The translations under genes and the position numbers were made by a program. The notes under the pieces are model-generated. The model was not told the DNA's origin. It did no database searches and saw only the letters and a list, made by a program, of their open reading frames with translations. This document shows, piece by piece, positions 42,220 to 45,690 of a stretch of 64,000 bases of DNA (the stretch's first letter is position 1; each line of letters opens with the position of its first letter). Origin of the DNA: Pseudofulvimonas gallinarii (lineage in GTDB: Bacteria > Pseudomonadota > Gammaproteobacteria > Xanthomonadales > UBA2363); contig NZ_SMAF01000010.1 in the NCBI RefSeq assembly GCF_004343305.1, forward strand, positions 1 to 64,000. Direction: 5' to 3'.

Positions 42220-42858
42220 TCAATCGAGGATGATGTAGAACAGGATGGCCAGGTAATGCAGCACGCTGCCGGTCAGCACGAAGGCATGCCAGATCGCATG
42301 CGAGTACGGCAGGCGTCGCCATACGTAGAACACCACGCCAACCGTGTAGGCGGCGCCACCGAGCAGCATCAGGATCAGGCCACCGCGTTCCAGAGAGGCC
42401 GCCAGCGGCTTGATGGCAACGATGCCTGCCCAGCCCATCAGCAGATAGAGCGCGACCGCCAGGCCGGTATAACGGCGCAGCGGCGTGAACTCGAAGATGA
42501 TGCCGAAGATGGCCAGGCCCCAGATGACGCAGAAGAGCGTCCAGCCCACGGGGCCATCCAGCGCCAGCAGGGTGAAGGGTGTGTAGGTGCCGGCGATCAG
42601 CAGGAAAATCGCGACATGGTCGAGCTTGCGCAGCACCGGGCGGGCACGCGCCACCGGCACGCCGTGGTAGAGCGTCGATGCGGTGTAGGCCAGGATCAGG
42701 GTGGTGCCGAAGATGCTGCCGGCGACCAGCGCGCGGGTGTCGCCGGCCCGGGCGGCGAACCCGACCAGCACCGCCAGCCCGACGATGCTGGCGATGATGC
42801 CCAGGCCATGGATGATGCTGTTGGCGATTTCCTCGCGCGGGGTATAGCGGGATTCCAT
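42220..42858 (-). CDS. trhA: Hemolysin III / PAQR-family membrane protein TrhA
   Basis: A 212-residue inner-membrane protein with seven hydrophobic helices. Family landmarks are EEIANSIIHGLGIIASIVG at the N-terminus, STLYHGVPVARARPVLRKLDH (with the conserved Ser/His zinc-site residues) and the C-terminal YSHAIWHAFVLTGSVLHYLA histidines. Relatives (E. coli YqfA, bacterial PAQR proteins) are linked to membrane-lipid or energy homeostasis; true haemolysin activity is doubtful. I chose the second ATG (MESRYTPREE), which matches relatives. A 20-base palindrome lies about 70 bases upstream and recurs before the divergent aroQ-accBC operon. Confidence 0.9.
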   Translation of the reverse strand: MESRYTPREEIANSIIHGLGIIASIVGLAVLVGFAARAGDTRALVAGSIFGTTLILAYTASTLYHGVPVARARPVLRKLDHVAIFLLIAGTYTPFTLLALDGPVGWTLFCVIWGLAIFGIIFEFTPLRRYTGLAVALYLLMGWAGIVAIKPLAASLERGGLILMLLGGAAYTVGVVFYVWRRLPYSHAIWHAFVLTGSVLHYLAILFYIILD

Positions 42859-42926
42859 GACGGTCACCGGGCCTGCGGCACTGCAGCACGCACCGTAGCG
42901 CAGGCCCCAATCCATGACAACGGGTT

Positions 42927-42946
42927 TCAATACGCCTGCGTATTGA
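42927..42946. promoter_or_regulatory. Palindromic operator candidate in front of trhA
   Basis: Perfect nine-base inverted repeat TCAATACGC / GCGTATTGA with a two-base centre (CT), about 70 bases before the trhA ATG. Its core ATACGCCTGCGTA recurs inverted at 43232-43244. Confidence 0.6.
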
Positions 42947-43347
42947 GGGGCGGATTGCGTTCAGGCTGCAGGGGGCGGAGCGTGGATCCTGCCTTCGGGA
43001 GAGCGCCCATCCTGCCCCGCTTACACGAAGTGATGCCGGCCGGGTCGCCTTCGATGGGCTCCGCCGTCAACCTTCATCAACCGGCGACGGGCGAGGACCG
43101 GGGGGGGGGCGGCGTGCCACGCTGGTGCCCTGGCAAAACGGATGGACACGTTGACATCTGTCAATTTGTCCCGGTTGCCGTCCAAGGCGGTGTGCACCGC
43201 ACCCCGACCGGCCACGTGCGAGCCCCACATCCTACGCAGGCGTATGGATGATCGTGAAAATCGGCGAACGTCGGCGAACTCGCCGGGAACTGGACAAGAC
43301 CCAGCGCTCGCACCACACTTCACCGCTTCGCCACTCCGGATCGAACC
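42947..43347. other. trhA-aroQ divergent gap with further palindromes and a G10 tract
   Basis: No gene is seen. It contains a run of ten G (43100-43109), the palindrome TTGACA-TC-TGTCAA (43151-43164), the second copy of the trhA operator core (43232-43244, opposite orientation), and the small stem CGGCGA / TCGCCG (43271-43284) in front of aroQ. Open frames crossing the gap look like shadows of flanking genes. Confidence 0.55.
43232..43244. promoter_or_regulatory. Second copy of the trhA palindromic element, upstream of aroQ-accBC
   Basis: The core ATACGCCTGCGTA reads on the minus strand here, about 105 bases before the aroQ start, and TC-A flanking bases are also shared with the first copy. 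Placement before two divergent genes suggests a common regulator. Confidence 0.55.
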
Positions 43348-43788
43348 GTGGCCCGGTTGCTGCTGCTCAATGGACCCAACCTCAACCTGCTCGGCACGCG
43401 CGAGCCGGCGGTCTACGGCCATACGACGCTGGCGCAGATCGAGGCCGGACTGCGCGACCGCTGCCAGGCGGCCGGACATCAGATCGAGTGCCTGCAAAGC
43501 AATGCCGAACACGTGCTCGTCGACCGCATCCAGGCGGCGCGCGCCGACGGCACCGCATTCATCCTGATCAACCCAGCAGCCTTCACGCACACGAGCGTCG
43601 CACTGCGCGACGCACTCGCGGCGGTGGCCATCCCGTTCATCGAGCTGCACCTGAGCAACCCGCACGCACGCGAGCCGTTCCGCCACCACTCCTATCTGTC
43701 CGACCTCGCGGTCGGCGTGGTGGCCGGGTTCGGCCCCGACAGCTACCGGCTGGCGCTCGACGCCGCCCTGGCACGCCTGGCGCATTGA
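43348..43788 (+). CDS. aroQ: Type II 3-dehydroquinate dehydratase
   Basis: Third step of the shikimate pathway, dodecameric enzyme. 146 residues: [20 protein letters not shown] (with the catalytic Arg and Tyr loop), [36 protein letters not shown] (catalytic His) and [22 protein letters not shown]. Start is GTG with a weak ribosome site. It precedes accB by 55 bases; the aroQ-accB-accC order is common in proteobacteria. Confidence 0.96.
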
Positions 43789-43843: not shown

Positions 43844-44320
43844 ATGGATCTGCGCAAGATCAAGAAGCTGATCGAGATGCTGGAAGAATCGAACCTGTCC
43901 GAGCTGGAGATCCGCGAGGGCGAGGAGACGGTCCGCCTCAGCCGTCACCCGGCCAGCGTGCCGATGGCGACCTACAGCTCCGCACCGGTGATGACCGCGG
44001 CGCCGCAGGCCGCAGCACCCGCAGCCGCCGCGACGGCGCCGACGCCTGCGGCCGGCAGCAGCGACGCCGCGCCCGAGCTGCCGGCCGGGCAGGTGCTGCG
44101 CTCGCCGATGGTCGGCACCTACTACGCCGCGCCCTCGCCCGGCGCAGATCCGTTCGTGCGCATCGGCCAGCAGGTCAAGAAGGGCGACACGCTCGCGACC
44201 ATCGAAGCGATGAAGATGTTCAATCCGATCGAGGCAGAAAGTGATGGCACGGTCAAGGCCATCCTGGTCGAGAACGGCCAGCCGGTGGAATTCGACCAGC
44301 CGCTGTTCGTGATCGGCTGA
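43844..44320 (+). CDS. accB: Biotin carboxyl carrier protein of acetyl-CoA carboxylase
   Basis: Carries the biotin that moves CO2 from AccC to the carboxyltransferase. 158 residues: an N-terminal helical region ([20 protein letters not shown]), an Ala/Pro-rich flexible linker at about 45-80, and the biotinyl domain with [15 protein letters not shown] (thumb) and the biotinylated lysine in [13 protein letters not shown]. accC begins five bases after its stop, so the two are made together. Confidence 0.97.
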
Positions 44321-44325
44321 CCGCC

Positions 44326-45690
<1,365 letters not shown>

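Follow-up and report, generated by a model that had tools for sequence, protein, structure and literature searches.

The gap between trhA and the divergently transcribed aroQ-accB-accC operon of Pseudofulvimonas gallinarii holds two inverted copies of a palindromic element, which raises the question of whether one regulator controls a PAQR-family membrane protein together with acetyl-CoA carboxylase, and if so which. The preliminary description of this DNA had proposed a TetR-like, lipid-responsive regulator. We examined the window (the whole stretch of 64,000 nucleotides containing the locus), the 3.45-Mb genome from which it comes, two congeners and further genomes of the order, which includes important plant pathogens and environmental bacteria. 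The best explanation, with a probability of about 0.85, is that the palindromes are operators of TfmR, which would act as a repressor at fatty-acid degradation genes and more probably as an activator at aroQ-accBC and trhA, in a genus that lacks the regulator PsrA.

Organisation of the trhA-aroQ region

The genes, predicted promoters and palindromes of the region, in window positions, are as follows.

42220–42858, minus strand: trhA, PAQR/HlyIII-family membrane protein (Pfam HlyIII PF03006, 4e-44), ATG at 42858
42892–42897, minus strand: predicted trhA −10, TACGGT, inferred from sequence
42915–42920, minus strand: predicted trhA −35, TTGTCA, from sequence, with a 17-bp spacer to the −10
42926–42947, minus strand: predicted TfmR-type operator 1, TTCAATACGCCTGCGTATTGAG, 5′ of trhA, ranked first in the window by a position weight matrix (PWM) from tfmR promoters of other species
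43151–43164, no strand assigned: third palindrome, TTGACA-TC-TGTCAA, between the two operators
43228–43249, plus strand: predicted TfmR-type operator 2, CATCCTACGCAGGCGTATGGAT, 5′ of aroQ-accB-accC, ranked second in the window by PWM
43291–43296, plus strand: aroQ-accBC promoter −35, TGGACA, from alignment of aroQ upstream regions
43314–43319, plus strand: aroQ-accBC promoter −10, CACACT (CAGACT or CACACT among relatives)
43348–43788, plus strand: aroQ, type II 3-dehydroquinase (Pfam DHquinase_II, 1e-57)
43844–44320, plus strand: accB, biotin carboxyl carrier protein (Pfam Biotin_lipoyl, 2e-23)
44326–45690, plus strand: accC, biotin carboxylase (open reading frame named by sequence and operon order)

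As described previously, a perfect nine-base palindrome with a CT centre lies about 70 bases before trhA (TCAATACGC-CT-GCGTATTGA, 42927–42946, inner edge 68 bp 5′ of the ATG), and a sequence search of the window places its 13-base core, ATACGCCTGCGTA, at 42930–42942 on the plus strand and, inverted, at 43233–43245 on the minus strand before aroQ-accBC. The second copy is better drawn as 43228–43249, CATCC-TACGC-AG-GCGTA-TGGAT, with a left arm one base short. Both promoters are positioned by consensus matches; the aroQ promoter (TGGACA, 17 bp, CACACT, 43291–43319) is invariant in nearly all aligned Xanthomonadaceae, and the trhA promoters of the congeners are similar to that of the window (TTGTCC or CTGTCC followed by TATGCT in G002 and G001, respectively). 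Relative to the predicted transcription starts, operator 1 is centred at about −51.5, 6 bp upstream of the trhA −35, and operator 2 at −87.5. The divergent arrangement of trhA and aroQ-accB-accC occurs in all three genus genomes examined and at none of the other aroQ loci checked.

A motif of tfmR promoters singles out both palindromes

TfmR of the Xanthomonadales is a TetR-family protein that represses mhpC-fadE and leaves DNA in the presence of long-chain fatty acids (PMC6637906). The Xanthomonas citri protein is a repressor of mhpC-fadE and fadH, its release by long-chain fatty acids having been shown at the mhpC/fadE promoter only (PMC6637906), while that of X. oryzae pv. oryzicola binds and directly activates rpfG and hrpX (PMC11173191). 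Of 398 genomes of the order, 384 have a TfmR protein, with a single strong match in nearly every genome. The window genome encodes one (G000:C8:44479–45072), divergent from mhpC-fadE as in Xanthomonas, and the gene order TetR, Abhydrolase, FadE is kept in all three genomes of the genus (L269, L270 and L271). All 31 TfmR sequences that were aligned, those of Xanthomonas-type genomes included, have the same helix-turn-helix stretch, PLARRLGVTKGSFYWHF.

At 28 of 30 tfmR loci across the order the palindrome CCATAC-N6-GTATGG occurs with no more than one mismatch, in the divergent promoter region where inspected. The consensus was first spotted from the window element, and a weight matrix was afterwards trained solely on tfmR promoters outside the genus. 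In the 64-kb window this matrix ranked the trhA-side element first, with 19.7 bits, and the aroQ-side element second, with 14.1 bits, the next position reaching 7.3 bits; with the matrix from other species' tfmR promoters, before the whole genus was kept out of training, the two scored 20.8 and 14.6 bits. The two palindromes are thus very probably operators for the TfmR of this genome, a fatty-acid sensor encoded elsewhere, and the TetR-like lipid regulator proposed earlier for trhA and accBC gains support from a motif derived from other genera. No published TfmR operator sequence was found, in PMC6637906 and PMC11173191 in particular; the motif supplies one that can be tested. At tfmR loci L207–L231 a second conserved piece, GGCGTATGG(T/A)TAAA, lies close to the tfmR start codon; it resembles half an operator and could represent either the −10 region of tfmR or a half-site for autoregulation.

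TfmR-type sites at other lipid genes of the genus

Mismatch-pattern searches of the three genus genomes yielded a candidate regulon that is incomplete and includes some chance sites. The pattern ATACGCNNGCGTAT with one mismatch matched 8, 4 and 8 sites, against 4, 0 and 0 for a reversed control, and CCATACGCNNGCGTATGG with three mismatches matched 32, 26 and 19 sites, against 16, 11 and 15 for the control. Many of the non-coding sites precede orthologous lipid genes. These are aroQ-accBC, fadB, fadD, an acyl-CoA dehydrogenase operon, the divergent pair of a TetR gene and an alpha/beta hydrolase gene, and genes for a short-chain dehydrogenase, a secreted lipase-like protein and a VolA/Pla-1 phospholipase. 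PWM scores in the congeners were 27–30 bits at tfmR/mhpC, 20–27 at fadB, 13–16 at the acyl-CoA dehydrogenase operon, 10–17 at the secreted lipase-like protein and 7–13 at the phospholipase. The predicted operators of mhpC and fadD overlap the start codons of these genes, as would suit a repressor. Pattern matches inside coding genes (a GIY-YIG gene, an ECF sigma-factor gene, dus and others) were taken as chance, and sites at OmpW, gltA and FAH were kept off the core list as weak or unconserved. The VolA/Pla-1 family gene, which encodes a phospholipase lipoprotein, is preceded by a TfmR-like palindrome in each of the three species (G000:C7:56800–56817; G001:C29:19383; G002:C11:86787).

Proposed direction of control at aroQ-accBC and trhA

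Binding by TfmR, its ligand and the sign of regulation at the window sites are what we infer from these patterns. TfmR dimers would bind CCATAC-N6-GTATGG-like sites and, by extension from X. citri TfmR, be released by long-chain fatty acids. TfmR would repress lipase and beta-oxidation genes. The aroQ-accBC and trhA sites lie upstream of the −35, a placement that fits activation better than repression. As long as fatty acids are scarce, TfmR would sustain fatty-acid synthesis and the PAQR membrane protein and hold degradation down, and when they are plentiful the reverse would hold. The predicted regulon would thereby no longer be confined to fatty-acid breakdown but take in the initial step of synthesis and a PAQR membrane protein.

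The main rival to dual control, which we consider doubtful if still plausible, accepts the sites as TfmR operators and makes TfmR a repressor only, so that exogenous long-chain fatty acids would induce accBC and trhA alongside the fad genes. Repression is the usual role of TetR proteins, is what X. citri TfmR does at mhpC-fadE and fadH (PMC6637906), and is what FabR does at E. coli trhA, known there as yqfA (PMC9017321). However, the predicted operators at aroQ and trhA stand clear of the −35 and −10 elements, unlike those at mhpC and fadD; induction of the first synthesis step by exogenous fatty acid would be metabolically odd; and at other promoters the X. oryzae pv. oryzicola protein is an activator (PMC11173191). 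The overlap of operators with start codons at mhpC and fadD, the placement upstream of the −35 at aroQ-accBC and trhA, and the activation reported for X. oryzae pv. oryzicola TfmR (PMC11173191) together lead us to favour dual control with moderate confidence. Neither accBC nor trhA was seen among the TfmR targets in the X. citri and X. oryzae pv. oryzicola studies, and activation of accBC by TfmR is not known to have been reported.

The proposed TfmR regulon resembles several known systems in part. The X. citri (XAC3052) and X. oryzae pv. oryzicola proteins share the divergent mhpC-fadE synteny, the TetR_N domain and fatty-acid-gene targets, but were studied for virulence, whereas the regulon predicted here is broader and belongs to a genus without PsrA. 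E. coli FabR (fabA, fabB, yqfA) is also a lipid-responsive TetR repressor tied to trhA, but it acts on unsaturated fatty-acid genes, while the motif here is that of tfmR promoters. The earlier appeal to the FabR regulon was correct in that yqfA belongs to it (PMC9017321), so that a link between trhA and a lipid regulator is already known, via a different regulator; it holds for this locus as an analogy only, the regulator indicated here being TfmR rather than FabR.

Conservation of the sites and loss of PsrA

Conservation of the element in relatives differs between its two copies. The aroQ-accBC site is present in both congeners (13–14 bits), in three genomes of family f11 (15–17 bits) and in many genomes of family f12, identified as Rhodanobacteraceae by named loci (8–21 bits), a clear site being missing from some Rhodanobacteraceae. 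Its centre lies between −86.5 and −90.5 in nearly all f12 promoters measured; in the congeners it is at −73.5, compared with −87.5 in the window, so that the site may have been re-made rather than inherited. Neither congener has a trhA site of its own, the best scores there being those of the aroQ-side sites. Sites upstream of trhA do recur in several other genera, with 9–18 bits at 5 of 27 f12 loci and 11–13 bits at 2 of 20 loci mostly from f2 (99% background quantile 4.3 bits), and TfmR control of trhA therefore looks recurrent but unstable.

Of 398 genomes of the order, 341 have a PsrA-type regulator. The three genus genomes have no match to it at 1e-15, the f11 genomes listed lack it too, and exact CAAAC-N4-GTTTG boxes number 1, 0 and 0 genome-wide in G000, G001 and G002. 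The absence of PsrA, like the identity, conservation and positions of the TfmR-type sites, is a computational observation. The psrA locus was compared in two genomes.

G000:C1 72510–76510 (L169): window genome
G326:C6 around 2532000 (L262, L292): Xanthomonas-type genome

In the Xanthomonas-type genome fadB-psrA is divergent from ndk, with a CAAAC-N4-GTTTG box; in the genus fadB is divergent from ndk with psrA gone from between and the flanking genes kept, and a TfmR site of 20–27 bits is present. The aroQ promoters of Xanthomonadaceae have no TfmR site. Instead they have a TCAAAC-N4-GTTTGA-like box, whose centre is at −65.5 from the predicted start of transcription in each of the seven promoters measured; the box, about −103 from the aroQ start at loci L005–L022 and L091–L117, agrees with the PsrA consensus given for Smlt2053/XAC2014 (PMC10304680). 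Its conservation suggests that PsrA controls aroQ-accBC in Xanthomonadaceae; no published report of such control was found.

In the genus without PsrA, TfmR-type sites stand at fadB and aroQ-accBC, where Xanthomonadaceae have PsrA-type boxes. Loss of psrA combined with TfmR sites at these promoters fits the replacement of one fatty-acid sensor by another, of which this would be a clear natural case. Many Rhodanobacteraceae have PsrA together with a TfmR site at aroQ, so PsrA loss is no precondition. The fullest version of dual control, in which TfmR is a master lipid regulator of this lineage comparable to FadR that activates aroQ-accBC and trhA through upstream sites, represses degradation genes through sites at or close to their start codons and took over PsrA targets after deletion of psrA, with operators exchanged at fadB and aroQ-accBC, is tentative and falls a little short of an even chance. 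E. coli FadR activates acc genes. It would share with TfmR the logic of repressed degradation, activated synthesis and release by long-chain acyl ligands, but it belongs to the GntR family, and both protein family and operator are unrelated.

It is unlikely that another TetR-like regulator with a similar site, rather than TfmR, is the true ligand of the elements. TetR paralogs can have half-sites in common, and no published TfmR operator sequence was found; against this, tfmR promoters across the order have themselves kept the motif, nearly every genome has one strong TfmR match, and the region of the recognition helix does not vary. PsrA is the other fatty-acid regulator of the TetR family that occurs order-wide. 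Regulators of its type (Pseudomonas aeruginosa PsrA; Smlt2053/XAC2014) resemble TfmR as long-chain fatty-acid sensors, but their box is [C/G]AAAC-N2-4-GTTT[G/C] and their gene is absent from this genus; since neither gene nor box is present, the window sites were not read as PsrA-type.

Chance, mobile elements and minor features of the gap

The preliminary description had taken the 13-base repeat as unlikely to arise by chance, which does not hold for the repeat on its own. First-order shuffling of the window produced on average 0.34 inverted pairs of self-palindromic 13-mers no more than 500 bp apart, and 21% of shuffles had at least one, as observed; the observed number of perfect 9-2-9 palindromes was reached in 28%. 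The repeat alone is not strong evidence, and significance rests on the independent motif test. In 20 Mb of random sequence with matching first-order composition 12 positions reached at least 14.5 bits and two at least 20.8 bits, corresponding to about 2 and 0.35 expected occurrences per 3.45 Mb, and chance is therefore a very improbable source of two such sites in a single gap of 487 bp. That the palindromes are accidents of a GC-rich intergenic region not kept by selection is accordingly very improbable: the shuffles and the missing trhA copy in both congeners speak for it, whereas the independent ranking of the two sites, the conservation of the aroQ-side site in several families and the lipid-gene neighbours of the motif elsewhere speak against it.

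The 12-mer TACGCCTGCGTA occurs at just these two places in the whole genome, so the palindromic element is not a dispersed repeat; dispersal at random sites was what the preliminary description had named as refuting its reading. It is also very improbable that a small element of about 322 bp was inserted here, with the palindromes as its terminal inverted repeats, as might be thought from the inverted copies and a gap longer than the roughly 230 to 300 bp of the congeners, since blast of the gap found no second copy in the genome or congeners, visual inspection showed no evident target duplication, and both arms are complete palindromes fitting the tfmR motif. An RNA-element reading was dropped, as an Rfam search of the gap returned nothing above the gathering score and no terminator-like site was found in it. 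The third palindrome is present as first described and is not conserved in either of the two congeners. A run of ten G residues at 43100–43109, also within the gap, is a possible slippage tract or weak point of the assembly.
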